DNA from: Streptomyces capitiformicae
GTDB lineage: Bacteria > Actinomycetota > Actinomycetes > Streptomycetales > Streptomycetaceae
Length of the DNA stretch: 64,000 nt
Direction of reading: 5' to 3'
Assembly (NCBI RefSeq): GCF_002214185.1
Contig: NZ_CP022161.1
Span: 8,439,486 to 8,503,485 of the forward strand
The position numbers were made by a program, and so were the translations under genes. Under the pieces are notes generated by a model. It was not told the DNA's origin and made no database searches. It saw nothing but the letters and a program-made list of their open reading frames with translations. Below are positions 1-57,354 of the stretch, one piece after another. Each line of letters starts with the position of its first letter. Position 1 is the first letter of the stretch.

Positions 1-876
1 GCCCGGGTCGGCCAGCCGGAGTTGTTCGGGGCGCAGCACCACCGTGCCCGTGCGCGGTCTGTCCGGTGGTTCGGCCAGCGCCACGGTGCCCAGTGGTGTG
101 GTGGCGGTGGAGCCGCTGTTCCCGACCGTTCCGGAGAGGAGTACGGCATCGCCGACGAAACCGGCGACCCAGGGGTCGGCGGGGCGCAGGTAGAGGTTCT
201 GTGGGGTGTCGCATTGGGCGATGCGGCCCTGTCGTACGACGGCGACGAGGTCGGCGGTGGACAGTGCCTCCTGCTGGTCGTGGGTGACCAGGAGTGCCGT
301 GGCTCCGGTGGTCCGCAGGGCAGCCCGTACGTCCGCGCGTACCCCGGCGCGCAGCGCGCTGTCGAGGGCGTTGAACGGCTCGTCGAGCAGGACGAGCGCG
401 GGGCGCGGAGCGAGTGCTCTGGCCAGGGCGATGCGTTGCTGCTGTCCTCCGGAGAGCTCGTGCGGCATCCGGTCGCCGTACCCGGCGAGTCCCACCAGAT
501 CGAGCATCTCCTCGGTCCTGCTGCGTCGCTCGGCCCGGTCGAGGCCGGTGAGGCCGAAGGCCACATTGCGGGTCACGCTCAGATGCGGGAAGAGCGCGCC
601 CTCCTGCGGGACGATCCCGATGCGGCGCCGCTCCGGCGGCAGATGTACGCCGGGGCCGGTCAGGGTGCGTCCGTCGACGCTGACCGTGCCCATGTCCGCC
701 TGCAGGAACCCGGCGATGATGCGCAGCAGGGTGGTCTTGCCGCAGCCGGAGGGTCCGAGCACGGCAACCAGCGCGCCGCCCGGCACCGTGAGGTCCAGCC
801 CTTGGAGGACGGGGGCTTCAGGGCCGTAGGACTTGGTCAGTCGCTCGATGCGCAGCTCGTTGTGACGGTCGTTCAT
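1..876 (-). CDS. Iron(III) ABC transporter ATP-binding protein (3' end cut by window edge)
   Basis: Cytoplasmic ATPase that would power a ferric-iron (FbpABC/AfuABC-type) importer. Read on the minus strand from ATG at 876, it shows Walker A (GPSGCGKTT) about 45 codons in, the ABC signature LSGGQQQR, Walker B (LVLLDEP) and the H-loop VTHDQ, so the nucleotide-binding domain is complete. The C-terminal regulatory (TOBE-like) part, of which ATTPLGTVALAE is visible, runs off the left edge without a stop. The start overlaps the permease stop in an ATGA junction, so the two are translationally coupled. It is third in a substrate-binding protein, permease, ATPase operon. The family is clear. Iron as substrate is inferred from the binding protein and the upstream iron box. 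Confidence 0.93.
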   Translation of the reverse strand, partial: MNDRHNELRIERLTKSYGPEAPVLQGLDLTVPGGALVAVLGPSGCGKTTLLRIIAGFLQADMGTVSVDGRTLTGPGVHLPPERRRIGIVPQEGALFPHLSVTRNVAFGLTGLDRAERRSRTEEMLDLVGLAGYGDRMPHELSGGQQQRIALARALAPRPALVLLDEPFNALDSALRAGVRADVRAALRTTGATALLVTHDQQEALSTADLVAVVRQGRIAQCDTPQNLYLRPADPWVAGFVGDAVLLSGTVGNSGSTATTPLGTVALAEPPDRPRTGTVVLRPEQLRLADPG

Positions 877-2474
877 GTGCGGTGCCTGCCCAGGAGGTAG
901 GAGGGGACGGCGGCGAGCAGGATGAGGGTGGCGGCGTAGGGAGCGGCGGCCGCGAAGGATCCGGCTCCGGTCTCGGTCCACAGCCGGGTGGCCAGGGTGT
1001 CCATGCCGGTGGGGCGCAGCAGCAGCGTCGCGGGCAGTTCCTTCATGCAGACCACGAAGGTGAGCGCGGCACCGGCGGCCACACCCGGTGCTGCCAGTGG
1101 CACGGTGACCTCGCGCAGGACCCGCAGTGGCGACCTGCCCAGCGAGCGGGCCACGTCCTCCAGTACGGGTGGCGCCTGCAGCACGGCGGCCCGGGTGGCG
1201 GCGACGGCGACCGGCAGGAAGAGCACGGCGTACGCGCAGACCAGCAGCGGGAGTTGCTGGTAGAGCGGATAGGCGTAGCGCACCGCGAAGAAGACCAGCG
1301 AGAGGGCGACCGTGATGCCGGGCAGCGCGTGCCCCGCGTACGCCGCCTGTTCCAGCAGCTGCGCGCGCCTGCCCCGGTGCCGGGCGGCGATCACGCCGAC
1401 CGGCAGGGCGAGGGCCGTGGTGAGGGCGGCGCCCGCGGCGGCGACCCCGAGGGTGGCCCAGGCGGTGTCCGCGAGGCCGGCCAGGTCCCAGGTGGCCGAG
1501 GTCCCCGCGGCCAGCCAGTAGCCGAGGGTGCCGAGCGGGAAGGCGAGTGCGACGGCCACCACCGCTCCGCACCAGAGCAGGGCGATGGGCTGCCGGCGCC
1601 CGAGGGGGAGTTGAACAGCCGGGCGGGCGGTGCCCGTTCCGGCCCTGGCGTGCCCGGCCCGGCCGCGGGTGCGGGCCTCGGCGGCGACCAGCGTCACCGT
1701 CATCACCACCAGCACGACGCTGAGCGCGGCGGCCGGGGTGCGGTCGAAGGATGCGCGGTAGGAGGTGTGGATGGCCCGGGTGAAGGTGTCGTACCGCATC
1801 AGCGACACGGCGCCGAAGTCGGAGAGCACGTACAGCGCGACGAGCAGTGCCCCGCCGGCGGCGGCCGGGCGCAGCTGCGGCAGCGTGACGCGGAGGAAGG
1901 TGCGCAGCGGCCCGTGACCGAGGGAGCGTGCGGCCTCCTCCTGTGCCGGGTCGATCCCGCGCAGCGCGGCCGCGACGGGCAGATGGACGTAAGGGAAGCT
2001 CACCAGGGTCAGCGCGAGGGCGGCCCCGCCGAAGCCGGCGGCCTGAGGCACGGCGGCCAGCCAGGCGAAGGCGGCGACGTAGCTGGGCACGGCGAGCGGC
2101 AGGGTGGCCAGCACCGACCAGGCGCGTGCCCCGGGCAGATCGGTGCGTACGGTCAGCCAGGCCAGGGAGATGCCGAGCACCAGGCAGGCCGCCACGACGA
2201 CCGCCGTCAAGCCGAGGCTGCGGCCCAGGAGTTGGAGCGTGCGTTCGTCGGCGACGACGTCCCAGGCGTAGCCCGGCCCGCGTTCGAGGGCGCGGACGGC
2301 GAGATAGCCGAGCGGCAGCAGGGCGAACAGGGCGGCGATGCAGGCAGGGACGAGCAGGACCAGCGGGGGTCTGCGGCCGGAGCCGGCCGGGGCCCCGCGA
2401 GCCGTACGCAGGCGTCGGCGCCCGGCCGGAGCGGGTGCTCCGGCCGGGCGTGCCGCGGAGGAAGTTGTGGTCAC
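873..2474 (-). CDS. Iron(III) ABC transporter permease, fused two-domain type
   Basis: Inner-membrane channel of the importer, about 533 residues. It is a tandem duplication of the binding-protein-dependent permease fold, as in FbpB, with roughly 12 membrane segments. Each half carries an EAA loop that docks the ATPase: EEAARSLGHGPLRTFLRVTL in the first half and EDVARSLGRSPLRVLREVTV in the second. I chose the GTG at 2474 because an earlier in-frame start would run deep into the preceding binding-protein gene; 34 bases then separate the genes. The N-terminus before the first helix is proline/arginine-rich and poorly constrained, so the start is uncertain. The stop overlaps the ATPase ATG. Confidence 0.9.
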   Translation of the reverse strand: MTTTSSAARPAGAPAPAGRRRLRTARGAPAGSGRRPPLVLLVPACIAALFALLPLGYLAVRALERGPGYAWDVVADERTLQLLGRSLGLTAVVVAACLVLGISLAWLTVRTDLPGARAWSVLATLPLAVPSYVAAFAWLAAVPQAAGFGGAALALTLVSFPYVHLPVAAALRGIDPAQEEAARSLGHGPLRTFLRVTLPQLRPAAAGGALLVALYVLSDFGAVSLMRYDTFTRAIHTSYRASFDRTPAAALSVVLVVMTVTLVAAEARTRGRAGHARAGTGTARPAVQLPLGRRQPIALLWCGAVVAVALAFPLGTLGYWLAAGTSATWDLAGLADTAWATLGVAAAGAALTTALALPVGVIAARHRGRRAQLLEQAAYAGHALPGITVALSLVFFAVRYAYPLYQQLPLLVCAYAVLFLPVAVAATRAAVLQAPPVLEDVARSLGRSPLRVLREVTVPLAAPGVAAGAALTFVVCMKELPATLLLRPTGMDTLATRLWTETGAGSFAAAAPYAATLILLAAVPSYLLGRHRT

Positions 2475-2508
2475 GTGATGCTCACGGTTTCCGTCGGGCT
2501 CAAGCCGC

Positions 2509-3555
2509 TCAGACCAGTCCGACGTCCTGCAGCATGGCCAGAGTCTCCTGTAGGGATTCCAGCTTGCCGAGGTCGATGTCGGGGGACTGAAGGGAGTCGA
2601 ACGGCGGCAGCCCCTCAACGGTGCTGGTCACGCCCGCGGCCAGCGGGTACTCCTTCGTCTTGTCCGCGAAGTACGTCTGCGCCTCCTTCGACAACAGGTA
2701 GTCGACGGCCTTCTGCGCGGTCTGGGTCTGGCCGCTGTCCTTCAGGATGCCCACGCCGGCCACGTTGATCAGCGCGCCGGGGTCCTTGCCGGGCAGGAAG
2801 TGCAGCTTGGCGCCCACCTTGTCCTCGCCCTTCTCGGCCACCCGCTCGTACCAGTAGTAGTGGTTGACCAGACCGAGGGAGACCTCGCCGGCCTCGACGG
2901 CGTCCAGGGTCGCGAGGTTGTGGGCGTAGGTCTTGGCGCCGTTGGCCTTCAGGTCCTCAAGCCACTTGCGGGTGGCTTCGTCGCCCTCCAGGACGCGCAT
3001 GCCGGTGACGAACGCCTGGAAGGAGGCGTTGGTGGGCGCGAAGCCGACCTTGTCCTTCCACTCGGGCTTCACCACGTCGTGGACGCTGTCCGGGACGTCG
3101 TCCTCGGTGACCTTGTCCGGGTTGTACGCGATGACTCGCACGCGCCCCGACAGGCCCACCCAGTCGCCGGCGCCGCCCCGGTAGGCCGAGTCGACCTCGT
3201 CGAGGCTGGACTGCGGCAGCTTGGCCAGCATGCCCTCCTTGGAGAGGGCACCGAGCGCGCCCGCGTCCTGTGAGAGGAACAGCCCGGCCTTGGTGCCGTC
3301 GCCCTCCTCCAGTATCTGCGCGGCCAGTTCGGCGCTGTCGCCGTAGCGCACCTGGACCTCGGCGCCGACGGCCTTCTCCAGCTTGTCGAGGATCGGCTTG
3401 ACCAACTTCTCGTTGCGGCCGGAGTAGATGACGAGGCCGGTGTCGCCGCCCTCCGAGCCGCTCTTGTCGTCGTCGGAGCCGCAGGCGGCAAGGGCGGGGA
3501 GCAGCAGACCGGCCGCGAGGAGCGCGGTGACCCGGCCAGCCAGGGGGCGTCGCAT
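2509..3555 (-). CDS. Iron(III) ABC transporter substrate-binding lipoprotein
   Basis: Extracellular lipid-anchored receptor that binds ferric iron and hands it to the permease; 348 residues. ATG at 3555 follows a good AGGAAGG Shine-Dalgarno. The N-terminus is a lipoprotein signal (MRRPLAGRVTALLAAGLLLP) ending in the lipobox LAAC. The mature protein begins with the FbpA/AfuA-like stretch LVIYSGRNEKLV. The adjacent tyrosines in VNHYYWYERV correspond to the pair that binds Fe3+ in FbpA. It is the first gene of the operon. An iron box lies about 100 bases upstream, so iron-dependent repression by a DmdR/IdeR-type regulator is expected. Confidence 0.93.
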   Translation of the reverse strand: MRRPLAGRVTALLAAGLLLPALAACGSDDDKSGSEGGDTGLVIYSGRNEKLVKPILDKLEKAVGAEVQVRYGDSAELAAQILEEGDGTKAGLFLSQDAGALGALSKEGMLAKLPQSSLDEVDSAYRGGAGDWVGLSGRVRVIAYNPDKVTEDDVPDSVHDVVKPEWKDKVGFAPTNASFQAFVTGMRVLEGDEATRKWLEDLKANGAKTYAHNLATLDAVEAGEVSLGLVNHYYWYERVAEKGEDKVGAKLHFLPGKDPGALINVAGVGILKDSGQTQTAQKAVDYLLSKEAQTYFADKTKEYPLAAGVTSTVEGLPPFDSLQSPDIDLGKLESLQETLAMLQDVGLV

Positions 3556-3656
3556 GTGGTGTGCCTTCCTGCGTGGCTCGCCGTGACGCCGCAGTTCGTC
3601 GTCGGTCAGCGAGCGGCGAAGTGATGCTTTCAAGCCAGCTGTGAACATGCTATGAA

Positions 3657-3675
3657 TAAGGTAAAGCTTGCCTAA
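3657..3675. promoter_or_regulatory. Iron box (DmdR/IdeR-type operator) between divergent genes
   Basis: The 19 bases read TAAGGTAAAGCTTGCCTAA. The outer arms TTAGG / CC(T)TA and the overall length match the actinobacterial IdeR/DmdR consensus, an imperfect palindrome of the form TTAGG...CCTAA. It lies about 100 bases upstream of the iron-binding lipoprotein (minus strand) and about 20 bases upstream of the adenylation-acyltransferase gene (plus strand), so one site could repress both. The match is seen in the sequence; binding and the effector metal are inferred. Confidence 0.75.
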
Positions 3676-3695
3676 CCGTCAAGGGATCTGTGCTG

Positions 3696-6443
3696 ATGCG
3701 GACGCTGCCGCAGAAAGGTCGCGCGCGCGTGATAGACCCCGTCAGACCTCTCTCGGCCCCTTTCACCCTCCCCACGTCACGCACGACCTCGGTTCCCTTT
3801 CCGCGACGGCCCGTACGGCCGCGTGGTGTTCCGTTCGCACGGGACCTCGCGTCGTACGGTGACCGCACCGCGCTCATCACGCCTTCCGGCGAGCTCAGTT
3901 ACCTGGCGCTCGCCGAGCGGGTCGCCGCCGCCGCCGAACGCCTCGGCCCCGCACGCCGCCTGGTCCTGCTGGCCGGGGCGAACCGGGCCGACGCCCTGGT
4001 CGTCCACCTCGCAGCCCTGTTCGCCGGCCACCCCGTCCTGCTCGTACCCGGCGACAGCGTCGGCACCATCGACGCCCTGACCGCCGCGTACGACCCGGAT
4101 GTGGTCGCACGGCCGGACGGCCACGGCACCTGGGTGCTCGACGAACGGCGGCGCGAGAGCGCCCACACCCTCCACCCGGATCTCGCGCTGCTGCTCAGCA
4201 CCTCCGGTTCCACCGGCTCCCCGAAACTGATCCGGCTCTCGCACGAGAACCTCCAGGCCAACGCCGAGTCCATCGCCGCCTACCTGGACATCCGCGACAC
4301 CGACCGGGCCGCCACGACGCTGCCCATGCACTACTGCTACGGCCTGTCCGTCATCCACAGCCATCTGCTGCGCGGCGCCGGGCTGCTCCTCACCGAACGG
4401 TCAGTGGCCGACGCCGACTTCTGGGAGGAGTTCCGCGCCGCCCGCGGCACCTCGCTCGCCGGAGTGCCGTACACCTTCGACCTCCTCGACCGGATCGGCT
4501 TCGACCGGATGCGGCTGCCCCACCTGCGCTACGTCACCCAGGCCGGAGGCCGCCTGGCGCCCGAACGCGTCGCTCACTACGCCGAGTTGGGCCGCCGCGC
4601 GGGATGGGAGCTGTTCGTGATGTACGGGCAGACCGAGGCGACCGCCCGCATGGCGTATCTGCCCCCGGCGTTCGCGGCCGAGCGCCCGCAGGCCGTCGGA
4701 GTGCCGATCCCCGGCGGCTCCTTCCGGCTGAAGCCGGTGGACGGCATCGACGATCCGGACGCGGGCGAACTGGTCTACTCGGGCCCGAACGTCATGCTCG
4801 GGTACGCCGAGAGCCCGTCGGACCTCGCCCGGGGCCGGACGGTCGAGGAGTTGCACACCGGGGACATCGCCCGGCATGCTCCGGACGGGCTGTACGAGAT
4901 CGTGGGGCGCCGCAGCCGGTTCACCAAGATCGTGGGCCTGCGGATAGACCCGCAGCGCGTCGAAGCGATCCTGGAAGGCCATGGCATACGTGCCCTGTGC
5001 GCGGGTGAGGACGACGCGCTGGCCGTGCTCGCGGCCCGCACCGCGGGTGTCGACGCGACACGCGTCCGGCGCCTGGTGGCGGACGGCTGCGGTCTGCCGC
5101 CGCGGGCGATACGGGTGCGGGTGGTCTCCGAGCTTCCCCGGCTCGCCTCGGGCAAGCCCGACTACCAGGCCGTACGCCGGCTGGTGCGCGAGGTGGAAGC
5201 GCCGCCGGCCGAGTCCGGCACCACCGCCGACGACCTGTGCGCGCTCTACGCGGAGATCCTCGACCGGAGCGACGTCACCGAGGACAGCAGCTTCGTGAGC
5301 CTGGGTGGCGACTCGCTGTCCTACGTCGAGATGTCACTGCGGCTGGAGCGGGCACTGGGCCGGCTGCCCGCCGACTGGCACACCACATCGATCCGGGAGC
5401 TGCGCCGGCACCGTGCCGCGCCGCTCCCGGCCGGGAGTACGCCCTCGCGGCGCGGGGTCCTGCGGCCTCTGGAGACCGGCATCGCCCTGCGGGCGATCGG
5501 GATCGTCCTGATCGTGGGCTCGCACATTCCCGTCTTCACCGTCCAGGGCGGCGCCCATGTACTGCTCGGCGTGGCCGGCTTCAACTTCGCCCGCTTCCAA
5601 CTCTCCGCGCACGAGCGCCGGGAGCGCCTGCGGCGGATGTGCCGCAGCATCGCGCGCATCGCCGTACCGAGCATGCTGTGGATCACCTTCGCGCTGCTGC
5701 TGACCCGTGAGTACGACCTCGCCAACATCGTGCTGGCCAACAGCCTCTTCGAACAGGACAACTCCGGCCCGGAGTGGCGCTACTGGTTCGTCGAGGCGCT
5801 GGTCTACTTCCTGACCGGGCTGGCGATGCTCCTGGCGGTCCCCCTGCTGGACCGCGCGGAGCGGCGCAGCCCCTTCGGCTTCGCCCTGGCGCTGGTGGGC
5901 CTCGGCCTGGTCGGGCGCTACGACCCCTGGAGCCTCGCGCACATCCGCTACCACCTCAGCCCGACCGTCGTGTTCTTCCTGTTCGCGGTGGGCTGGGCAG
6001 CGGCGCGGGCACGCACAGCGGGACAGCGGCTGCTCCTGACCGCCGTTCTGCTGGTCAGCGTTCCGGGGCTGTTCCCCGGGGGACAGCCCCTGCGCACCAC
6101 AATCGTCATTGGCGGCCTGCTCCTGCTGCTGTGGGTCCCGTCCCTGCCCAGCGTGGACCCGCTCAACCGGCTCGCGAGTGTTCTGGCGGGCAGCTCGCTG
6201 TACATCTATCTGACGCACTTCCAGGTCTACCCGTATGTACGCGACCACTCGCCGGTGCTGGCCCTGCTGGTCTGCCTGGTGTTCGGTGTGGCGTACGGGT
6301 CGGTGGCCACGCGTCTGACGCGCCGGCTCTTCCCTTCGCCCGGAACCTCGGCGAACGCCTCCGGCCAGGCGGAGCTGGACGGACGGAGGGGGAGAGCGTA
6401 TTGCGGTTCCGTGCGGGCGTCCGGACGCTCCCGGGAGGGCTGA
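3696..6443 (+). CDS. Adenylation-carrier-acyltransferase fusion protein (Dlt-like self-loading membrane acyltransferase)
   Basis: 915 residues, three modules. Residues about 45-490 are an ANL adenylation domain: phosphate loop STSGSTGSPK near 168, YGQTEATARM near 311, HTGDIA near 390, GRRSRFTKIVG hinge near 405, and the catalytic lysine in RLASGKPDY near 487. Residues 510-570 are a phosphopantetheine carrier (FVSLGGDSLSYVEM, serine near 540). From about 590 to 880 is an acyltransferase-3-like membrane domain with some ten hydrophobic segments (GIVLIVGSHIPVF; GSSLYIYLTHFQ). It would activate an acid, load it on its own carrier arm and transfer it at the membrane, combining the jobs of DltA, DltC and DltB. 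Substrate and acceptor are unknown. The iron box immediately upstream suggests a siderophore or iron-stress role. ATG 3696 is preferred over GTG 3690 because of its spacing from AAGGGA. Confidence 0.85.
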   Translation: MRTLPQKGRARVIDPVRPLSAPFTLPTSRTTSVPFPRRPVRPRGVPFARDLASYGDRTALITPSGELSYLALAERVAAAAERLGPARRLVLLAGANRADALVVHLAALFAGHPVLLVPGDSVGTIDALTAAYDPDVVARPDGHGTWVLDERRRESAHTLHPDLALLLSTSGSTGSPKLIRLSHENLQANAESIAAYLDIRDTDRAATTLPMHYCYGLSVIHSHLLRGAGLLLTERSVADADFWEEFRAARGTSLAGVPYTFDLLDRIGFDRMRLPHLRYVTQAGGRLAPERVAHYAELGRRAGWELFVMYGQTEATARMAYLPPAFAAERPQAVGVPIPGGSFRLKPVDGIDDPDAGELVYSGPNVMLGYAESPSDLARGRTVEELHTGDIARHAPDGLYEIVGRRSRFTKIVGLRIDPQRVEAILEGHGIRALCAGEDDALAVLAARTAGVDATRVRRLVADGCGLPPRAIRVRVVSELPRLASGKPDYQAVRRLVREVEAPPAESGTTADDLCALYAEILDRSDVTEDSSFVSLGGDSLSYVEMSLRLERALGRLPADWHTTSIRELRRHRAAPLPAGSTPSRRGVLRPLETGIALRAIGIVLIVGSHIPVFTVQGGAHVLLGVAGFNFARFQLSAHERRERLRRMCRSIARIAVPSMLWITFALLLTREYDLANIVLANSLFEQDNSGPEWRYWFVEALVYFLTGLAMLLAVPLLDRAERRSPFGFALALVGLGLVGRYDPWSLAHIRYHLSPTVVFFLFAVGWAAARARTAGQRLLLTAVLLVSVPGLFPGGQPLRTTIVIGGLLLLLWVPSLPSVDPLNRLASVLAGSSLYIYLTHFQVYPYVRDHSPVLALLVCLVFGVAYGSVATRLTRRLFPSPGTSANASGQAELDGRRGRAYCGSVRASGRSREG

Positions 6444-6691: not shown

Positions 6692-6775
6692 ATGTCCCGT
6701 ACGCAGCAACGACTCGTTCGTCGTCGGCATGTCGACTTTGGTCACGTCGTCAGCGCCGCCTGCTGTCGCGCGTAA
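6692..6775 (+). CDS. Cysteine-containing leader peptide 1 (27 aa)
   Basis: A 27-residue peptide, MSRTQQRLVRRR then HVDFGHVVSAACCRA, ends in two adjacent cysteines three codons before the stop. The RRHVDFG-x3-SA-x-C pattern is that of the short actinobacterial leader peptides found before sulfur-assimilation genes. Polycysteine short ORFs act as cysteine-responsive attenuators in mycobacteria. ATG 6692 sits 8 bases after AGGA; ATGs at 6683 and 6686 are in the same frame. The next gene begins 108 bases downstream. The inferred role is that ribosome stalling at the Cys codons when cysteine is scarce alters expression of the winged-helix/oxidoreductase unit. Confidence 0.75.
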   Translation: MSRTQQRLVRRRHVDFGHVVSAACCRA

Positions 6776-6883: not shown

Positions 6884-7453
6884 ATGACCACGGCACTTCC
6901 GGCCCAGGCCACTCCACACGATCCGCCCCTGTCCGACACGCGCCATCTCCGCCTGGTGGGCGACACCGCTCAGAGCGGTGCCGATGGACACACTTCCGCG
7001 CCGCTCGTCGGTTATCTCCTGCTCGTCCCCGAGGGCACCGATCCCGCCGAGCTCTTCGTCAAGGACAGGCCCCGGCCCGAGATCCGACCGGTCGTCTCCA
7101 CGGACTCGGCCCCTGTCCGGCAGAGGGGAGACGACGTCGTCCGCATCGATCCCGCGCGCCATGTCGCCGAGGTGGACGGACGCGAACTCGACCTCACCTA
7201 CCTGGAGTTCGAGCTGCTGGCGCATCTCGTTCTGCATCCCCACCAGGTGCATGCGCGCGATCGGCTGGTGACCGCCGTCTGGGGCTACGACCACATCGGC
7301 GACGGCCGCACCGTGGATGTCCACATCGCCCGCCTGCGCCGCAAGCTGGGCGAGGCCCACCGGCACCGGATCGTCACCGTACGACGCGTGGGCTACAAGT
7401 ACGTGCCCGATCAGCGGGAAAGCCCCAACACCGCACCCTGCCACCGACCTTGA
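6884..7453 (+). CDS. OmpR/PhoB-type winged-helix DNA-binding protein without a receiver domain
   Basis: 189 residues. The C-terminal half (about residues 90-180) is a clear OmpR-family winged helix: LDLTYLEFELLAHLVLHPHQ, RDRLVTAVWG, a recognition helix RTVDVHIARLRRKLG, then the wing VTVRRVGYKYVP. The first 80 residues are a short non-receiver region (PLVGYLLLVPEGTDPAEL) with no phospho-acceptor aspartate, so it cannot be an ordinary response regulator. It lies 13 bases upstream of the SfnB-like oxidoreductase and behind a cysteine leader peptide. It is therefore a good candidate for the transcription factor of this sulfur unit, perhaps reading the TAGGAAAAC palindromes. The target is inferred. 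Confidence 0.85.
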   Translation: MTTALPAQATPHDPPLSDTRHLRLVGDTAQSGADGHTSAPLVGYLLLVPEGTDPAELFVKDRPRPEIRPVVSTDSAPVRQRGDDVVRIDPARHVAEVDGRELDLTYLEFELLAHLVLHPHQVHARDRLVTAVWGYDHIGDGRTVDVHIARLRRKLGEAHRHRIVTVRRVGYKYVPDQRESPNTAPCHRP

Positions 7454-47511: not shown

Positions 47512-48258
47512 CTAAGCCCTCCAGCGCCGCATCACCGGCCACATGGCGACCCCGATCGCCAGCGCCAGCAGATGCCCCCAGTTCGTCATCGGATCCGTGA
47601 AGGCGATCAGGTCGTCCACCAGCATCCCGCCGACCGACACCACAATCGGCCACCGCGACCACGGCGACAGCACCCCCGCCAACGCCCCGACGCTCGCCGC
47701 CACCCCGAAGCTGATCCCGTAGTCGAGACGGTGGAGGGAGGTCCCGTGCAGGTGACCGACCGCCACCGCCAGGCCCACCGGAACCTCGGTCGCGAGCGTG
47801 GCCAGTACGTGCCCCAGCAGGAAGACCCCGGCCGTACGCCACCCTCCGATCCGGCGTTCCAGCGCGGTCAGGACCAGCAGACAAGCGAGGAAGTACGGCG
47901 AACCGATCCCGCCCGCGACCCACAGCGCACTCGCGAACAGCACCAGCACAGGGCTCTGCACCAAGTGCGCCACGTCCGTGCTGGACCCCTGGTGCAGGGC
48001 GTGCACCAGGGCGGGGTCGGCGTACTCGGCCACGATCGAGGTGATCACCAGGACGGTCGCGTACGAGAAGGTGAAGGGCGTGCCCCGGGGAGCGGGGACC
48101 AGTCGCCAGGGGCGCGGGAGCGTGCGCCGGCGTGGGGACGGGGTGGGGCGGACGGGCGCCGCACCGGGCGGCCGAGGGATCCCGTCGAGGACAGGCCCGG
48201 TGACCGACGGCGTCGCGTCAGCCCCACCAGCCCCCTCCGCGGTCTCCACGGCGTCCAC
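47512..48258 (-). CDS. Rhomboid-like membrane protein
   Basis: 248 residues from GTG 48258, which follows GGAAGGGG; an ATG at 48306 would add 16 residues. After a basic/proline-rich head come about five membrane segments: YATVLVITSIVAEYADPALV, PVLVLFASALWVAGGIGSPY, a TM with RRIGGWRTAGVFLLGHVLAT, LDYGISFGVAASVGALAGVL and NWGHLLALAIGVAMW. The serine in GISFG and the late histidine match rhomboid catalytic positions, but GxSG is not intact (Phe follows Ser), so protease activity is uncertain. It belongs to the actinobacterial rhomboid-like group. Confidence 0.75.
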   Translation of the reverse strand: MDAVETAEGAGGADATPSVTGPVLDGIPRPPGAAPVRPTPSPRRRTLPRPWRLVPAPRGTPFTFSYATVLVITSIVAEYADPALVHALHQGSSTDVAHLVQSPVLVLFASALWVAGGIGSPYFLACLLVLTALERRIGGWRTAGVFLLGHVLATLATEVPVGLAVAVGHLHGTSLHRLDYGISFGVAASVGALAGVLSPWSRWPIVVSVGGMLVDDLIAFTDPMTNWGHLLALAIGVAMWPVMRRWRA

Positions 48259-48448
48259 GATGAAGCGCCCCTTCCGTTTCACCCCACTCTCAACGCCCCT
48301 GCCCATCCCAGTCTGTGACCCCTACCACCCACCACCCGATTCGCAGGCAACCGACAGCCTTACGGGACATCCCGTCTCATCCCCCGCAACACTCGCTCCG
48401 CATAAGCCCGAAACCGCCCCGCCATGTCGAACCGTTCCTAAAGACTGA

Positions 48449-48958
<510 letters not shown>

Positions 48959-49313
48959 AACAAGATCACCGGACTCTACGAAACTCGTGCAGCTCACTCG
49001 GCCGGTTGCCTCCTGCCTGGTGGCGCCCACCTCACAGACGAGGCCAGCTCCGGCCCAGAAAAGTGAAACGGCCTGCTGGGACGGGTGCCTTTCTCGTTGT
49101 CCTGGATGCAAACATGCAGGTGAGCGAGGGCTGCCTTTTGCGGAAAACCCCATTACGTGACTGCGTCCCGCGTATGTCCCAGGCAGAGCAATTCCACGGG
49201 ATCGGACAAATGGGATTTCATTGGTCTTGGACTGCAAGGATCCAGGTCGGAGCATCCAGGTGGTGTAGCGATCACGGCGAGGTAGGCCGTTGCTGTTTTG
49301 GCATGCACAGGAA
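48959..49313. other. Intergenic region, nothing recognised
   Basis: 355 bases between the transposase fragment and the tRNA-Arg terminator. GACTCTACGAAACTCGTGCA at 48972-48991 may be part of the IS3 element end. No coding pattern, tRNA or convincing hairpin was found. Confidence 0.4.
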
Positions 49314-49347
49314 AGGCCCTGACCGGCGTTTCCGCTGGTCAGGGCCT
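49314..49347 (-). terminator. Terminator hairpin downstream of tRNA-Arg
   Basis: AGGCCCTGACCGGC (49314-49327) pairs with GCTGGTCAGGGCCT (49334-49347), 13 of 14 positions, with a short loop. On the minus strand it follows the tRNA 3' end by 10 bases and is followed by a short U-rich tract. It terminated transcription of the original chromosomal tRNA-Arg gene. Confidence 0.8.
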
Positions 49348-49357
49348 AAATTTCGGG

Positions 49358-49398
49358 TGCCCCCGGCAGGATTCGAACCTGCGCACACGGCTCCGGAG
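49358..49398 (-). other. 3' fragment of tRNA-Arg(CCG): attachment site of the integrated element
   Basis: On the minus strand this reads CTCCGGA (anticodon loop, anticodon CCG), GCCG, a short variable loop, then the T-arm GCAGG-TTCGAAT-CCTGC and acceptor CGGGGGC with discriminator A. The 5' half (D-arm and 5' acceptor) is replaced by unrelated sequence. A tRNA 3' half abutting its own terminator, with foreign DNA on the other side, is the standard mark of integration by a tyrosine-recombinase element. The intact tRNA copy should lie at the other end, beyond 64 kb. Confidence 0.85.
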
Positions 49399-49856
49399 GG
49401 CCTGTGCGACCTACGCATTCCAGCAGATCAGAGCTTCGCGGGCAGCATCGATGGGCTCATCGGTCCATGAATGGTCCGCAGGCGTCCGCCCGTTGCTGGG
49501 CCGCTTCCAGCCGAACCTGATCCCGCCGCCGATGGTGTTCGCATGCCGGATCACCACTCTGGAGCGATACCAGCCAGGGTCAATAACCACAGGGGAACCC
49601 GGGCTGCCATGCCCCTGTGCTCCGGTCTGCACCGTTCATCCGTATCGAGACGTGCTGCACGCCGAGGTAGCACTCACGCTAAATCAAACAGATGATCTAT
49701 TTGGGGAGCCATCTCAGGCCGTTGTCAGTGGCGGGCCGTAGCATCAGTTGATGACGCTCCTGCCGCACATGCACACAGCAGACGCATGCTTTACAGCCGG
49801 GGTCGACCAAGAGAAAATGTGCAGCGGTGGGCAGTCCAAAAAATCAGGGGGAAGTT
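49399..49856. other. Element-internal region next to att site, no gene recognised
   Basis: 458 bases between the att fragment and the first cargo gene. Only short open frames without family resemblance are present. The last 120 bases are A/T-richer (TAAATCAAACAGATGATCTA) and probably contain the promoter of the nuclease gene at 49857. Confidence 0.4.
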
Positions 49857-51350
49857 ATGGCACGCGTCTCCGAATATTACAATCTCGGACGAACCCAAGG
49901 AACGCTTGATTTTGTAGACGTGGACACCGTAAATGATATTCGGGTGTACGTGGACCCCGGGTTGATTCGGTATCTTGAGGACGACTGGGGCAAGCAATGC
50001 CTTAAAATGCTCGAAACCTTCTTTGATAGCGTCCTTGATTCCGTTCGCTCGAACGATAAGCGGCGAACGGTTTCCCTCCTCAGTCAACTTCGCGAACCTA
50101 ATGAGACACACCTGGGGATCTCGCGTGGGGCAAGTGCAGGCAGGGGTTTCGGAACTAAAATGGGAGCTGCATTCGCGGAGAAGCTCGCGGAAAGCGAAGC
50201 TGCAAGAACAGGGCTGATTCAAGATCTTGAAGATACCGCGTTTTTCATTGATGGTGTCGACATGGACATCGTCTCCGATATCACGACTAATATTATCCGC
50301 GGACCTCTCATTATCTACACCCAGCAGATGGCAGAACTTTTCGGCATCCCCTTGGAGCAGGATGTCGTGAGCGGACCAGTTTGGAACCCCAACACCTTGG
50401 AGTGGGAGAACGGTTTTACGGAACTGCCGACTCCCGATGGAAACAAGCTGCTTCTGGTTCCCAAGATGATCGTGCGCCGCTCCATGCACATGAATCGCAG
50501 TGAGTACTACCGTCACCACCTGGTGCCAGTACTCCAGGAGGAGGAAGCCAAGATTGCTCTTAGGGGGCTTACGGATACCGTTCGCTCACGCGGGAAAGTC
50601 GCGGTCACCAAAAAGCAGATCAAGGAGAAATACGGCAGCACAAAGCCTGACGTCACACGCGAATCACTTAAACGGCCATCCGTGTACGAGCACTACCGGG
50701 CCATCAAGAGGGAGATTCCTCCTCAGCCACTTTCTCACAGAGAACTGTCTGACACGGCAGACTCACCGATGCCTGATTACGAGCAACTGCTGCAAGCGGT
50801 TCTAGATGTTCCGCCCGGCAAGCCGGATGCGACGCGCTATCATGACGCCGTCGAGTCCCTTCTAACTGCCATCTTCTATCCCTCGCTCTCCATGTCGGAT
50901 AAGGAGACTGAGATCCATGATGGGCGCAAGCGGATCGACATCTCATATACGAATACCGCGAGAGACGGCTTCTTCAAGTACCTCATTCGACACAGAATTC
51001 AAAGCCGCTATGTGTTTGTCGAGTGTAAAAACTACGGCAAAGACGTCACTAATCCAGAACTTGATCAACTCTCCTCTCGATTTTCGACGCTTCGCGGCGA
51101 GTTCGGAATCCTAGCTTGCCGTGCATTCAAAGACAAGGAACTTTTTCTCCGCCGCTGCCGCGACACTGCGAGGGATGGGCGTGGTTATGTCATTGCCCTC
51201 GATGATGAGGATCTGAAAAGGCTTGTAGCGGACGTTCTGGCCGCCGTGAAGCCTGCCCCCGTCGACCTGGACGATCCCGACCCTGCGCCTGTCCGTCCTG
51301 TGTCTGACTATCCGCTGCTCCATGAGCGGCTCAAACAACTGCACGGTTAG
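49857..51350 (+). CDS. Putative defence nuclease with C-terminal PD-(D/E)XK (Mrr-like) domain
   Basis: 497 residues. AGGGGGAAG precedes ATG 49857. The N-terminal 330 residues (DFVDVDTVNDIRVYVDPGLI; SLLSQLREPNETHLGISRGA; VDMDIVSDITTNIIRGPLII) match no fold I can name and include a long helical stretch. The C-terminal 150 residues carry a restriction-like core: DGRKRIDISYTN, then YVFVECKNYGKDV (D...ExK) and LGILACR-like strand GEFGILACRAF. It would therefore cut DNA, probably under control of the N-terminal sensor. Composition differs from the chromosome (many A/T-ending codons). It is the cargo gene closest to att. Start and reading frame are firm; function is inferred. Confidence 0.72.
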   Translation: MARVSEYYNLGRTQGTLDFVDVDTVNDIRVYVDPGLIRYLEDDWGKQCLKMLETFFDSVLDSVRSNDKRRTVSLLSQLREPNETHLGISRGASAGRGFGTKMGAAFAEKLAESEAARTGLIQDLEDTAFFIDGVDMDIVSDITTNIIRGPLIIYTQQMAELFGIPLEQDVVSGPVWNPNTLEWENGFTELPTPDGNKLLLVPKMIVRRSMHMNRSEYYRHHLVPVLQEEEAKIALRGLTDTVRSRGKVAVTKKQIKEKYGSTKPDVTRESLKRPSVYEHYRAIKREIPPQPLSHRELSDTADSPMPDYEQLLQAVLDVPPGKPDATRYHDAVESLLTAIFYPSLSMSDKETEIHDGRKRIDISYTNTARDGFFKYLIRHRIQSRYVFVECKNYGKDVTNPELDQLSSRFSTLRGEFGILACRAFKDKELFLRRCRDTARDGRGYVIALDDEDLKRLVADVLAAVKPAPVDLDDPDPAPVRPVSDYPLLHERLKQLHG

Positions 51351-51696
51351 GTCGCCGCCCTCCGACGCCCAACATTGACAGCGGCTAACACAATGGGCCG
51401 AGTTATTGGTGGGCGGAGGTGGGCATGAGGTTGGCGGAGTCTCAATGACCAAGTCAAGCCGGCGGGGCGCCGTCTGTGAGCTAAGACGGCGCCCCCTGGC
51501 GGGCCTTGCGTCAAGCTGCCCCTCGATGCGAACTACGGGCGGTACGGTCGCTGAGGTCTGCTGGGCTGGTCAGGCGGCTGCCTCAAGTCGATGACGGATG
51601 CCATCAGTCGCGTTGGTTGCGGTACTTCCGTGCTGTACTGCACACCCGAACGTCGGGCGGGCTGTCCCCTTGACCGCCACTTCTAGTCTGCTGTCC
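51351..51696. other. Intergenic region, nothing recognised
   Basis: 346 bases between the nuclease and a frameshifted membrane-protein gene. Short inverted GGCGGGGCGCCGTC / GACGGCGCCCC sequences around 51462-51497 could form a hairpin (GGGGCGCCGTC with GACGGCGCCCC), a possible terminator for the nuclease gene. No coding sequence is supported. Confidence 0.45.
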
Positions 51697-52138
51697 ATGC
51701 AGTGGACAGCGCTCCTGGCAACCGCTCTTGGCGCGGCCATCGGAATCGTCAGTACCTCCATCGCAGACCGCGCCAGGTGGCGGCGAGATACCTCCGAGCG
51801 GGACCGCGAAGCCCTCCGGACATCGTTCTCGCCCTACGTTGAGGCACTGAAGGAGGCATACGACGCCATCACACATGTCAGCACGGAAGTGGACCGCCCC
51901 ATCGACGAACGCGCGGAAGTGATGCGCATGGTCATAGGCCAACACGGCGTCTACGCGAAGCAGCACCAACTTGAACTCATGGCTCCCCTCGCCGTAACAC
52001 AGCTCGCGCTTGCGGCCGCGCACAAGCTGGCTCGGGGCCACCCGCGATACACCTCAATGCACCTCGGCAAGGCGGGCTTACCGGGAGGCACGGTACGCGC
52101 TCATGGATGCCATGCGGGCCTCCCTTGAACGACGGTGA
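51697..52138 (+). pseudogene. Membrane-anchored hypothetical protein, frameshifted near its 3' end
   Basis: From ATG 51697 the frame encodes an N-terminal membrane helix (LLATALGAAIGIVSTSIADR), then a basic-to-helical cytoplasmic domain (WRRDTSERDREALRTSFSPY; EVMRMVIGQHGVYAKQHQLE). After about 52065 the expected helical end reappears one frame over as AYREARYALMDAMRASLERR, stopping at 52138. In the original frame the tail is unrelated and stops at 52128. One extra base near 52070 (GGCGGGC) explains this. Proteins of this type are common in Streptomyces and of unknown function. The truncation may still leave a stable protein. Confidence 0.65.
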
Positions 52139-52307
52139 GAGGCTCTTGCGGCTGTCGACCTGCGGCGGATCCTTGGCAGCCCCTTCGCCTCACGGGCAAC
52201 GCGCTGGCCAGGAACTCCACAGAGTCAGGTATCCGCGCTTCAGTCCACGAATAGTCCGGAACCTGGGCTCCAACATCCAGGACTACCACTGCCCGGCTGG
52301 TCCATGG

Positions 52308-53462
52308 CTAGTTGAACAGCTGTTGCCCGCGATCGACAGCCGCGCTCTCGGCCTGTGCCACGGCCCTCTTGGCGTACTCGGCATCATTGTCAGGGGCAAC
52401 CAGGCCGGTAGGCTCCTGCGAAGCGGCGGCTTTGGCAGCCTTCCGCGCCCGCTTCTTTGCCCTGCGCTCAGCGGCGATCTGTTCGCTGAATACCTTCCGG
52501 TAGGCGAGCGATTCCGCTCTTCTGGCCGGCTCCAGAGCCGCCCGCCGCGCTGGAGAGGAACCATCGGTCCGAAGGCAGACCCACTGGCTTTTATCGGTGA
52601 GCTCTATTTCCCCCAGTTCCCACGCGCGTTCTCGGTTGGATATCCAGTGGCCATTGAGGACCTCGAAGCCTTCTGCTCGCAATCTTCTTCGAGTCTCTCC
52701 ACGGAACCGGCGTGCGTCGTCTACCTGTTGCCCGATGGACTCGATGGTGTGCCGGTGGATGATCATACCTTCGCAGCGCTTGAAGAGTTCCAAGGCTCGC
52801 GCGTCACCACTTCGTGGTGCGAGAATGGCGTCCCGGTCCTGCTTGCGGAGACTCATGAGAAAGTTCTCAGGAAGGGACGCATCACCACGCCTTACCAGCC
52901 AGGCGACCTCACTCATTCCACCGGGACTCTGAATGGTGCGCTTTAGATCGCGATTACCGCCTACAAGGATCTCTTCCCTCACCCGGAGTAGACCGACTGC
53001 CATCTCACCGGTGACGTCGTCACCGTGCACTAGAAGGCAAATGTGGCCCACAGCCTCTGGGGGTATCTGCCAACCTCCGAAATTGCGGGACCACTTGCAA
53101 TCGACATCGACACCGCGGACATCGAAGTCCATGCCAGCGGAACCTTCATTCAGCTGGTACTCTTCGCGCACGATGTTCTCGATGTTTACCCCGAGATAAC
53201 TCTTCTCCTGATCATTGCATTGGTCCAGCGTCCAGCGGCGGGTCCGAGAAGTAGCGATGATCTCGTCCGTGGCCTTCCGGATGATGGCGCCCATTCGGGG
53301 GCACACGTTTGACACGAAGAACCCGAAAACGACAGCGAGTTCTGGGTCGTCTTCATGTGCGCATAGAATAGACCGCCCGATTGTGGTTTCGGACGCTATC
53401 TTACGCGCACACGCCTGTCGCTGATTGGTTGATTCCAGAGAGAAGAGAAATCCGTCATCCAT
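52308..53462 (-). CDS. NaeI-type restriction endonuclease
   Basis: 384 residues. The NaeI active-site segment is clear: GMDFDVRGVDVDCKWS contains the aspartate pair nine residues apart and the D-C-K that correspond to Asp86, Asp95 and Lys97 of NaeI. GGWQIPPEAVGHICLLVHGD follows and the C-terminal half contains a winged-helix-like DNA-binding region (ARRFRGETRRRLRAEGFEV). NaeI is a type IIE enzyme that cuts GCCGGC after binding two sites. The last 50 residues are a basic Ala/Lys/Arg tail (AAERRAKKRARKAAKAAA) longer than in NaeI. No cytosine methyltransferase for self-protection is present in this window. Confidence 0.85.
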   Translation of the reverse strand: MDDGFLFSLESTNQRQACARKIASETTIGRSILCAHEDDPELAVVFGFFVSNVCPRMGAIIRKATDEIIATSRTRRWTLDQCNDQEKSYLGVNIENIVREEYQLNEGSAGMDFDVRGVDVDCKWSRNFGGWQIPPEAVGHICLLVHGDDVTGEMAVGLLRVREEILVGGNRDLKRTIQSPGGMSEVAWLVRRGDASLPENFLMSLRKQDRDAILAPRSGDARALELFKRCEGMIIHRHTIESIGQQVDDARRFRGETRRRLRAEGFEVLNGHWISNRERAWELGEIELTDKSQWVCLRTDGSSPARRAALEPARRAESLAYRKVFSEQIAAERRAKKRARKAAKAAASQEPTGLVAPDNDAEYAKRAVAQAESAAVDRGQQLFN

Positions 53463-53490
53463 TATCGAGTAGCTCCGCGGTTCTCACGAT

Positions 53491-54543
53491 TCAATGAGTG
53501 CTGCTCCTCAGCACGTTGCTGCATGACCACCCCCGGTCTCCGCGAGCCTGCATGCGCCGCTGCTCAACGGCTGCTCGAAGTTGGGCAGGTGTGGGCCACG
53601 GCGCATGACGGTGGATCATGCGGTGGCAGTTCGCGCAGATGAGGGCAAGGTCAGTGAGCTTGGTCGTTCCCTCTCCTGCTTCATGCAGAGGCACAACGTG
53701 GTGGCACTCGATGTATCCGGCCCCGCGCTCCCCGTACACCGCCTCGAAGTCAAAACCACAAGCCTCGCAGGCTAGGCTGCCGCCTCGCCGCAACACGGAC
53801 TCGATCTTCTTCTTGCGAAGGCCCTTGTTGCGTTCTCTCGCCCTGTGGCGCCGCATGAGCAGTCGGCCTTCGGGAGCTTCGTACTCGTCGTCTGCCTCCT
53901 CGTCACCTGCGGGCGGCAGCGCTTGCAGTTCTCCTGAAGCGATGCCGAGCCGGATCAGCCGTGCGGTCTCGGTCATCTCCTCCGGACGAGCAAGGAACTC
54001 GTGCAGGACCTGAACGTCCGTCGCGCCGCCGTTCGTTGCCTTCCCCTGGTAGTCAGGGTGCCGGGTAGCGATGTCGAAGGTCTTGCGTGCCACCCCGTTG
54101 GGGTTGCGGAACTTCTCGTTGCGGTCTGCCTCGGCGTGCAGGGGAAGCAACTGAAGCAAGCCAGACAGTTCCACGACCCGCCGGTCGCTAACGTCCAGCC
54201 CGCGCCAGCCGTTGGCCATCACGAGGTCGCAGGCCAGGATCACCTCGTCGCGGGCCCAGTCGGGGTTCTTGATTGACTTGACGTCGAATCCCAGCCGCTT
54301 CAACCACGCAGCGGCGTGATCCTTGCCCCCACTGAACTTGTCCGCAGCAAGCACCGCCCCCTGGTCCCACTTGTGAGCTACGCCGGCGATTGCCTTGGAG
54401 TCGTACTCCCGGCCCTCGTGTACGAGCACGTAGGACACCGCCTTGCCGAACCCGTAGCGGGATAGGAAGGCTTCGCGCCCCAACTCATCATGCTCCGCGA
54501 CGGCCTTGAGTACCGACTCCCGTGAGATCACCCCTCGTTGCAT
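53491..54543 (-). CDS. McrA-like HNH endonuclease (probable type IV restriction)
   Basis: 350 residues. The N-terminal 85 residues (VLKAVAEHDELGREAFLSRY; GREYDSKAIAGVAHKW) match the head domain of ScoMcrA-like proteins, which cut modified DNA. The C-terminal HNH domain has CEACGFDF, YIECHHVVPLHEAG and ALICANCHRMIHRH, that is, two Cys pairs for zinc plus the His-His and Asn-His catalytic residues. No SRA domain is seen. It is 28 bases downstream, on the same strand, of the NaeI-like gene's start side, so the two may be one unit. The target modification is unknown. Confidence 0.85.
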   Translation of the reverse strand: MQRGVISRESVLKAVAEHDELGREAFLSRYGFGKAVSYVLVHEGREYDSKAIAGVAHKWDQGAVLAADKFSGGKDHAAAWLKRLGFDVKSIKNPDWARDEVILACDLVMANGWRGLDVSDRRVVELSGLLQLLPLHAEADRNEKFRNPNGVARKTFDIATRHPDYQGKATNGGATDVQVLHEFLARPEEMTETARLIRLGIASGELQALPPAGDEEADDEYEAPEGRLLMRRHRARERNKGLRKKKIESVLRRGGSLACEACGFDFEAVYGERGAGYIECHHVVPLHEAGEGTTKLTDLALICANCHRMIHRHAPWPTPAQLRAAVEQRRMQARGDRGWSCSNVLRSSTH

Positions 54544-54825
54544 GACTGAAGGCTACGGTGCGGCAGTGACAGATCCCAGGCGATCTAGCTTCGTGGCCTC
54601 TCGATGCGAACGGTGCGCGTGCCGGTCGTTTGAGGGCTTCTGGGCTGGTCAGCTGGACTGAGACAAGCATGAGCAGCCAGTCCCGGTCGGAGAGATGCTT
54701 CACCTCACCGTCTCCCCTGGGACTGAGCTGTCGGGTTCCCTTGGATGGTGTGGCGCGCTACGTGATATGAGGTACTTTGCTTACTCTGTGATATTCACCG
54801 TTACGTTGCGCAGCTAGGGGGCGGG

Positions 54826-56421
54826 ATGGCAGCGCCTGGTGGGGGGCCGAGGTTCAGCGGGCAGCCGGACCTACTTCGCGTAAGCGCGTCAGATGTGCAA
54901 GGGCTGCCTCAGGGATGTGGCTTGCATGGGGCGCTGAAGGTGCGTCCCAAGCTCAAGCCAACAGACTGGGTTCGCCGACGGGACGACTCGCAGACATTCG
55001 TTCTCGGCATTGTCCGCGACGTGAGCCTGAGGCTGCACGATGCCCTGCGATCCCCTGACTGGGAAGCGCTACATAGGCTAGTGCAGATCGAGCTAGCTCA
55101 GTATCAGCTGCATGCAGGAGACAGAAATTATATAGCCCGAGCTATTGAGAATTACCTCAACTGTCACCAGATATCAGAGTCTGAACTCGGTCCTCTCAGG
55201 CTCCGAGTGTGTGACCCAACGGTTGTCCCAGACCCTAGTGTCCCGTCAAATCAGCTATGGGTCTGGGCGCCCGTGTACGACAGTGAATCTGGTGTCCGAG
55301 AAGTTCGAAAGCTCCGTTTTGGCCAGGCTCGCCGAGTAGCAAAAGATGTTGAGAACTGGGCTATCACGGCAGCTCACGTCGCGGGACTGTTCCGGCCACG
55401 AGGGAATCTGGAGCGGATTCGAGTTATAGAAGTCGGTCTTGGTGACGGATCCATGGAGATCCTGTTTGACGAAAGCCCTTCAAGGGCGGAGTCACTATAT
55501 GAAGCCAACGTGTTTCCGATAGTAAGCAAGATCGTCACGTCAAATAAGCCGACACCGGGAAATGGCTGCGGGCGATGTAAAATTGCAGGGTGCTGCTCCT
55601 CTTTGGAGAAGGTTGACGGATTTCTCGGGCAGCCCCATAAGGGACCGGCTACCCGGTCAGTCAGCGCGCGTGACCTAGAGGTCTACGAAAAATGCCCCGC
55701 CCAATGGTACCTAAGTTCGAATAACTTGCCCTCAGAATCGAGCGATCTCCCTTCTTCTGAGCGAGGCAGGGTTATTCATGAGTGGCTAGCTCGGGCCCAT
55801 ATGGGCAGTCACAAATGCGATCCAAGTGATCTTGACGTCATTGACGGCAACTTCCCTCCAGGCCTGGACGAAAGTGACTACCTGGACTCGCGTGACTATG
55901 TTACGCAGCACGCGGCTATATGCCCTATTGGGGAAGGGGTGCGAGTAATCGGGAGTGAAGTCTCGGTATACGGATATGACGCGCAAGCGGATGTTGTAGT
56001 CGTCAGCAAGCCCGACTTGCTGTACGTGGATTCTGATGACACCTTCGTGATCAGAGAAACAAAGACGACTACCTTGAGCATTCCAGGGGATGAACAGGAA
56101 GCATTCGACCGGTTCTTCGCGGTGCCTTGGCTTCTTAACCTGATCGGTAGTGGATACCGGGGTCCCTACAAGAGTGACAAGGCGCGGCTTGAGCTGGAAG
56201 TTCTGGCTTCAGAGGACAGTCGTGTGTTCTCCTGGGACCTTGGCGATACTCGACTACTACGCATGGCAAAGGCCGAAGTGCGCCTGCGCGCCAAGAAGTG
56301 GCACCGGGATACGACCTGGAATAGCGCTCCCGGCGAGCACTGCCGGTGGTGCCCCGTCCGTAGTTGGTGTTCCGACGCGACCACGGACGAGGCTGATGAT
56401 GACCACTTGCGCATCCCGTGA
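54826..56421 (+). CDS. Tandem Cas4/RecB-like PD-(D/E)XK protein with two cysteine clusters
   Basis: 531 residues, apparently an internal duplication. The first half opens with RVSASDVQGLPQGCGLHGAL and closes with the cysteine cluster GNGCGRCKIAGCC. The second half opens with the parallel SVSARDLEVYEKCPAQWYL, has the RecB-family helix RGRVIHEWLARAHM, the nuclease core SKPDLLYVDSDDTFVIRETK (D...E-x-K) and ends in CRWCPVRSWCSD. The four-cysteine sets would hold Fe-S clusters as in Cas4 and AddB. The first domain lacks an evident ExK and is probably inactive. The gene is A/T-richer than its surroundings. No helicase partner is adjacent. Function inferred: DNA-end processing in defence. Confidence 0.72.
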   Translation: MAAPGGGPRFSGQPDLLRVSASDVQGLPQGCGLHGALKVRPKLKPTDWVRRRDDSQTFVLGIVRDVSLRLHDALRSPDWEALHRLVQIELAQYQLHAGDRNYIARAIENYLNCHQISESELGPLRLRVCDPTVVPDPSVPSNQLWVWAPVYDSESGVREVRKLRFGQARRVAKDVENWAITAAHVAGLFRPRGNLERIRVIEVGLGDGSMEILFDESPSRAESLYEANVFPIVSKIVTSNKPTPGNGCGRCKIAGCCSSLEKVDGFLGQPHKGPATRSVSARDLEVYEKCPAQWYLSSNNLPSESSDLPSSERGRVIHEWLARAHMGSHKCDPSDLDVIDGNFPPGLDESDYLDSRDYVTQHAAICPIGEGVRVIGSEVSVYGYDAQADVVVVSKPDLLYVDSDDTFVIRETKTTTLSIPGDEQEAFDRFFAVPWLLNLIGSGYRGPYKSDKARLELEVLASEDSRVFSWDLGDTRLLRMAKAEVRLRAKKWHRDTTWNSAPGEHCRWCPVRSWCSDATTDEADDDHLRIP

Positions 56422-56545
56422 CTCCTCCAGCCGCCCAGAGCTTCTGGTAAGCCGGAGGCGTGTGCATCCACTCGGTGCGGCGGCTACCCTAGGAACGATG
56501 CTCTGACGCCTCGTCGGCGCACATCGGAAGTCGCCGGAGGGGGAG

Positions 56546-57349: not shown

Positions 57350-57354
57350 CCACG

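Follow-up and report, generated by a model that had tools for sequence, protein, structure and literature searches.

Several described systems share parts with the locus considered here. In the Dlt pathway (DltA-DltC-DltB, with DltD), an acid is activated as an acyl-AMP, held on the arm of a carrier and transferred to a membrane acyltransferase of the DltB (MBOAT) type. Acyltransferase-3 (AT3) enzymes such as OafB and OatA, which are grouped with HGSNAT and GWT1 in the TmAT superfamily, use free acyl-CoA, and the bacterial AT3 fusions named in excerpts of three papers are those with SGNH and racemase domains (PMC9558356, PMC9833829, PMC12423673). Ferric-iron importers of the FbpABC/HitABC type consist of a binding protein with paired tyrosines, a two-domain permease and an ATPase. 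A stretch of the Streptomyces capitiformicae genome (contig NZ_CP022161.1, positions 8,439,486 to 8,503,485; its 64,000 nucleotides are called the window below) carries one gene in which an adenylation (A) domain, a carrier domain (PCP) and an AT3 domain are fused, next to a DmdR/IdeR-type iron box and a divergent, predicted ferric-iron ATP-binding cassette (ABC) transporter. We know of no described FbpABC importer with an acyl-activating membrane partner.

The fusion gene and its domains

The gene and its domains are arranged as follows, with positions counted from the first letter of the window:

3690..6443, plus strand: A-PCP-AT3 fusion gene, 917 residues from a GTG start; alternative ATG at 3696
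3816..5192, plus strand: adenylation domain, approximately residues 43-501; pocket residues C216 and R320, catalytic K489
5232..5375, plus strand: carrier domain, residues 515-562; arm on S542 in the motif GGDSL
5475..6329, plus strand: AT3 domain, approximately residues 596-880; about ten long helices; R601-X10-H612

Both starts are candidates; in some relatives the protein starts with the residue that corresponds to the ATG. An earlier note on this DNA had proposed an adenylation, carrier and acyltransferase-3-like architecture, and this is borne out by three Pfam matches over their curated cut-offs: AMP-binding (PF00501; best stretch 158-372, E 3.6e-39), PP-binding (PF00550; 515-562, E 2.4e-7) and Acyl_transf_3 (PF01757; 599-871, E 4e-10, 39.7 bits against a cut-off of 31). 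Since the relatives scanned carry the same domains (AMP-binding and PP-binding in 21/21 each, Acyl_transf_3 in 19/21, at E 0.001), a chance fusion or frame error is ruled out. The protein gives no Pfam match to a condensation domain at E 0.01; it thus lacks the hallmark of a multimodular non-ribosomal peptide synthetase (NRPS) for siderophores, and an ordinary NRPS fragment was rejected on this ground. A second A-PCP-AT3 gene was not found in the same genome, and a scan of positions 3500-3760 for sigma-70 promoters and terminators found none.

The residues needed for activation, carriage and transfer are intact. K489, S542, R601, H612, W699 and E702 are identical in all 68 aligned rows and in 9/9 further genomes, and the adenylation motifs, catalytic lysine and carrier serine are those of ANL/NRPS-like enzymes. 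Among solved structures, the one closest to the A domain in sequence is that of VinN (3wvn), which loads 3-methylaspartate onto a carrier and in which, according to excerpts of two papers, Asp230 holds the amino group and Ser299 and Arg331 the second carboxyl of methylaspartate (PMC7756342; PMC11253843). The chain index of 3wvn runs 16 above these published numbers at all three pocket places. The VinN aspartate aligns to C216 (Cys in 66 and Ser in 2 of the 68 rows; Ser in 2/9 further genomes) and the serine to A285, invariant in 68/68 and 9/9, while the arginine lines up, across a one-residue gap, with the equally invariant R320. VinN also differs in being separate from its carrier VinL, whereas A domain and carrier are fused here. 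As a small control, seven other adenylation proteins of the same genome were inspected; five had readable motifs, and none of these has an arginine at the R320 place. Because the pocket has C216 in place of the amino-clamping aspartate and an invariant R320, there is a hint, short of a named compound, that the substrate may be an acid that lacks an amino group and perhaps bears a further acidic one. Since the aspartate that would bind an amino group is missing, D-alanine or another ordinary amino acid appears unlikely.

The membrane domain has the TmAT fold. Its R-X10-H of helix 1 (R601, H612), a motif that the available part of one account calls absolutely conserved in AT3 proteins (PMC9833829), is kept in 68/68 rows. 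The RXXR of helix 3 is not: its first arginine is gone in 68/68, and the second is present in 58/68 and replaced by W or A in the other 10. As a small control, eight of ten other AT3 matches of the same genome were examined; six had a readable R-X10-H and five of these six had RXXR. The latter motif was treated as typical rather than defining, because it is described as highly, not absolutely, conserved. Excerpts describing the OafB model place Arg14, Arg74, Lys279 and Arg338 at the CoA 3'-phosphate and have acyl-CoA enter from the cytoplasm close to helices 9 and 10 and the N-terminus (PMC9833829). In the fusion the carrier is joined to the N-terminus of the AT3 domain, where that model has its acyl-CoA entrance. 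We read the loss of RXXR as a possible adaptation to a tethered donor, against which the kept R601 speaks slightly; the alternative is simple divergence. The AT3 part gave no match when compared with PDB sequences.

The earlier note had likened the protein to DltA, DltC and DltB. The likeness extends to the needed residues and to the predicted activation, carriage and membrane transfer; it fails for the membrane partner, which is PF01757 with a TmAT fold and not DltB-like, and for the pocket, which has Cys or Ser in place of the aspartate for the amino group of alanine. Unlike Dlt, moreover, the fusion is a single polypeptide with an iron box and an FbpABC partner. Compared with other AT3 enzymes, which it resembles in Pfam score, R-X10-H, helix number and fold, the fusion has an N-terminal A-PCP instead of free acyl-CoA, and lacks the first RXXR arginine.

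The iron box and the ferric-iron transporter

Upstream of the fusion gene the following features were assigned:

3657..3675, no strand assigned: DmdR/IdeR-type iron box between the divergent units, with 2 mismatches; same place in relatives
2509..3555, minus strand: FbpA-type ferric-iron-binding lipoprotein; reading frame open to 3648, with lipobox and relatives favouring the start at 3555
873..2618, minus strand: FbpB-type permease with two permease domains (Pfam); start codon provisional
1..876, minus strand: FbpC-type ATPase, extending about 186 bases beyond the left end of the window

The box, TAAGGTAAAGCTTGCCTAA, was compared with TWAGGTWAGSCTWACCTWA, which we take to be the DmdR/IdeR iron-box consensus. 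It is the sole site with up to three mismatches in the window, and 100 shuffles of the window gave no site. The 10.99-Mb genome has 16 sites at this threshold on the forward strand, two of them overlapping, and one with the reversed pattern; it also encodes four PF01325 regulator matches over cut-off. Among seven other box places scanned in this genome, five stand before iron genes, namely those for a PF01497 binding protein, for a siderophore-interacting protein, for another FbpA-type protein, for haem oxygenase and for FhuF/FecCD. The box had been placed about 20 bases before the start and described as shared with the importer. It does lie just upstream, 14 bases from the GTG and 20 from the ATG, as in a DmdR/IdeR regulon. 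Sharing is a fair description at this locus, whereas 11 relatives (L030-L033, L035-L037, L039-L041 and L065) have a pair of boxes at or between the divergent genes, separated by approximately 87-151 bases, which would suit separate operators for the two units.

The divergent neighbour is, by prediction, a ferric-iron ABC transporter, as had been claimed. Its binding protein matches the ferric-iron-binding protein 7w3w (E 3.3e-73) and HitA 6iwf (E 1.5e-62), and its paired tyrosines (Tyr264/Tyr265 in the numbering of the open reading frame, ORF) are kept in 37/37 aligned binding proteins, 35 of which match a simple lipobox pattern. Together with the permease and ATPase, this is the composition of an FbpABC/HitABC importer; what sets it apart is its recurrent pairing with an acyl-activating enzyme of the membrane. 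In NCBIfam, the names that score best for the transporter proteins belong to aminoethylphosphonate families, far under their cut-offs (71.1 versus 392.75 bits for the binding protein), and a phosphonate transporter was rejected because of these scores and the ferric-iron structure matches. A second FbpA-type protein, 50% identical, is encoded elsewhere in the genome (C1:5753078-5754175, L108) with its own iron box just upstream.

Conservation of these linkages was examined in the best 80 loci, many of them from close relatives, of 104 confirmed relatives found in genome contigs, with flanks of up to 8 kb (1,353,330 bases in total). An FbpABC set lies inside the flanks in 50 loci, its permease being upstream on the opposite strand in 33, upstream on the same strand in 11, downstream on the same strand in 5 and downstream on the opposite strand in 1; it was not seen in 8 further loci on short contigs. 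The start of the family gene, or that of its FbpA, has a box in 55/80 loci with up to three mismatches and in 69/80 with up to four. In loci with FbpABC upstream on the same strand, FbpA tends to be the gene that the box precedes. Either FbpABC or a box with up to four mismatches is present in 73/80 loci. At up to three mismatches, 68 of 69 boxes fall at these starts, which make up about 4% of the sequence. Under a narrower rule, a box was found at 47/78 family genes against 3/769 other ORFs of the same loci (simple ORF calls, the control leaving out FbpABC clusters and any ORF whose start is no more than 1200 bases from that of the family gene).

Independence was sampled with 198 genomes drawn across the phylum, of which ten further ones had a match, one of these (L097) seemingly duplicating L058 of the 80 loci. 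FbpABC adjoins in four, and four more have a box (up to four mismatches) at the start. The expected siting of relatives beside FbpA-type genes or iron boxes is therefore seen in 73/80 loci and 8/10 phylum genomes. The two relatives at the greatest distance (tblastn identities of 38 and 43%) both adjoin FbpABC genes, which lie downstream on the same strand in L106 and are split to both sides of the fusion gene in L105. Because even these distant members retain the neighbour in other arrangements, the partnership appears to persist while gene order varies.

When the ORFs of the 80 loci were clustered (simple ORF calls), FbpABC emerged as the chief recurring partner. Cluster c4 (18 loci) mixes ABC ATPases, cluster c3 (20 loci) has no assigned family, and 20 other neighbours scanned by Pfam are diverse. 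In three loci without FbpABC (L082, L085 and L089), the ORF immediately before the fusion gene belongs to a single cluster and is possibly an alternative partner; in L089 it encodes a DUF1206 protein. A separate search for AT3 relatives of another architecture, in which the 7997 candidates sharing most words were scored (proteins up to about 518 residues), gave 108 matches. Judged collectively by domains, length and contig size, many resemble pieces or short forms of the fusion family; others, on long contigs, may represent genes of their own.

Proposed function and its alternatives

On balance, these sequence data make it probable that the fusion acts in iron starvation as a transmembrane acyltransferase that loads itself and acylates an outer acceptor to give a product that feeds Fe(III) to FbpABC. 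When iron is replete, a DmdR/IdeR-type repressor on the box would keep both units off; starvation would free the operator and both would be made. In the cytoplasm, the A domain would activate an acid that is no ordinary amino acid and may carry another acidic group, and would load it onto the phosphopantetheine arm of S542, a step strongly expected from what is known of the family. The arm would then enter the AT3 pore from the cytoplasmic side, as acyl-CoA does in standalone AT3 enzymes, with the fused carrier replacing CoA; donation from carrier to AT3 is a well-grounded supposition. With the help of H612, the acyl group would be passed to an outer-face acceptor. The resulting compound, either secreted or attached to the surface, would bind Fe(III) or keep it available, and the FbpA lipoprotein would take up Fe(III) for import. 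A bolder version, which we put forward tentatively, is a third route to siderophore-like ligands beside multimodular NRPS and NRPS-independent siderophore (NIS) synthesis: a single membrane polypeptide would activate its own acid, pass it on its own arm through the AT3 pore and finish an Fe(III) ligand outside, making synthesis and export one act.

Several observations weigh against the proposed iron-starvation acyltransferase. In the protein, the match of R320 to Arg331 crosses a one-residue gap, R601 is kept although the OafB model puts the corresponding Arg14 at the 3'-phosphate of CoA, and the packing of the domains is uncertain in the structural model (pTM 0.52). With respect to the linkage, FbpABC is absent from 22/80 loci with full flanks, and neither FbpABC nor a box is found in 7/80 (L025, which lacks upstream DNA, L067, L077, L078, L082, L089 and L090) or in 2/10 phylum genomes; homologues in other contexts without a box are thus not the consistent pattern. 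The two most distant members lack a box, and the family is patchy (19/150 genus genomes and 11/198 phylum genomes, the genome studied here counted in both). Two scanned boxes of this genome have no evident iron gene downstream, one adjoining the far end of a pentapeptide-repeat gene. Finally, ORF clustering and Pfam scans of the 80 loci revealed no recurrent neighbour gene that would indicate the acid or the acceptor.

The other of these two box places, with 2 mismatches, lies between an ArsR-type regulator gene and an Antibiotic_NAT gene.

The main rival to a free ligand is a Dlt-like change of the envelope, in which a wall glycan, teichoic acid or lipid is acylated and the surface either holds Fe(III) near FbpA or alters its charge so that iron reaches FbpA, without a diffusible product. 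FbpA is itself a lipoprotein at the cell surface, no gene of a secreted-product pathway recurs beside the fusion in the 80 loci, and AT3 proteins described in excerpts of one paper act mainly on surface carbohydrates (PMC9558356). Glycan genes do not recur beside the fusion either, however, and since the loci come from bacteria with and without mycolate envelopes (Mycobacterium, Rhodococcus, Streptomyces, Arthrobacter), a common acceptor would need to be very general. An envelope role is regarded as rather unlikely.

It is improbable that the fusion tailors a known siderophore, acylating or capping, during or after export, a compound made elsewhere in the genome. The predicted iron regulation would suit such a role, and DesG and DesH, in an excerpted account, form a separate DmdR1-controlled locus able to change a siderophore (PMC12161575). 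The partner, however, is of the FbpA type, whereas excerpts of another paper describe binders of the PF01497 (PBP2) type for siderophores (PMC13293324), no siderophore synthetase occurs among the scanned neighbours, and a pocket invariant across genera is easier to reconcile with one common small acid than with a variety of siderophores. Least probable of all is a transporter for another solute such as phosphonate, or an AT3 domain still using acyl-CoA beside an unrelated A-PCP with iron as a secondary link: the aminoethylphosphonate names and the kept R601 speak for it, but those names score far under cut-off, the binding protein has kept its tyrosine pair and is matched by structures that bind ferric iron, and the boxes are concentrated at fusion and FbpA starts.

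Other features of the window and wider meaning

Beyond the locus, a small ORF, MSRTQQRLVRRRHVDFGHVVSAACCRA (6692-6775, plus strand), precedes genes for a winged-helix regulator, a DszC/SfnB-like monooxygenase and an ABC transporter, and resembles what we take to be the cysteine-rich leader peptide of a sulfur locus. A 189-residue ORF at 6884-7453 (plus strand) has an OmpR-type DNA-binding domain (Trans_reg_C) as its sole Pfam match, and no receiver domain was found in it. At 48001-60000, G+C content drops from about 71% to 60-62% and long ORFs with high GC3 are few; this stretch is perhaps an acquired region.

No paper on an A-PCP-AT3 fusion was among the listed open-access PMC matches, and the accessible part of an account of the S. 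coelicolor DmdR1 regulon mentions no such gene (PMC12161575). Each of the domains is known; it is the wiring that is unusual. How an acyl donor of AT3 enzymes passes the membrane is an open question, which a covalently carried donor makes testable by mutation of one serine. Because many actinobacteria link it to a predicted iron switch and a ferric-iron pump, the fusion looks like an unstudied part of actinobacterial iron acquisition, giving the FbpABC transporters of this phylum a biochemical partner. It points to a putative ligand for iron, or an altered surface, produced by few genes, which a search based on condensation domains or NIS enzymes would overlook. If the bolder version of a third ligand route is true, the fusion, FbpABC and one operator would constitute a four-gene iron-scavenging cycle spread through the actinobacteria.
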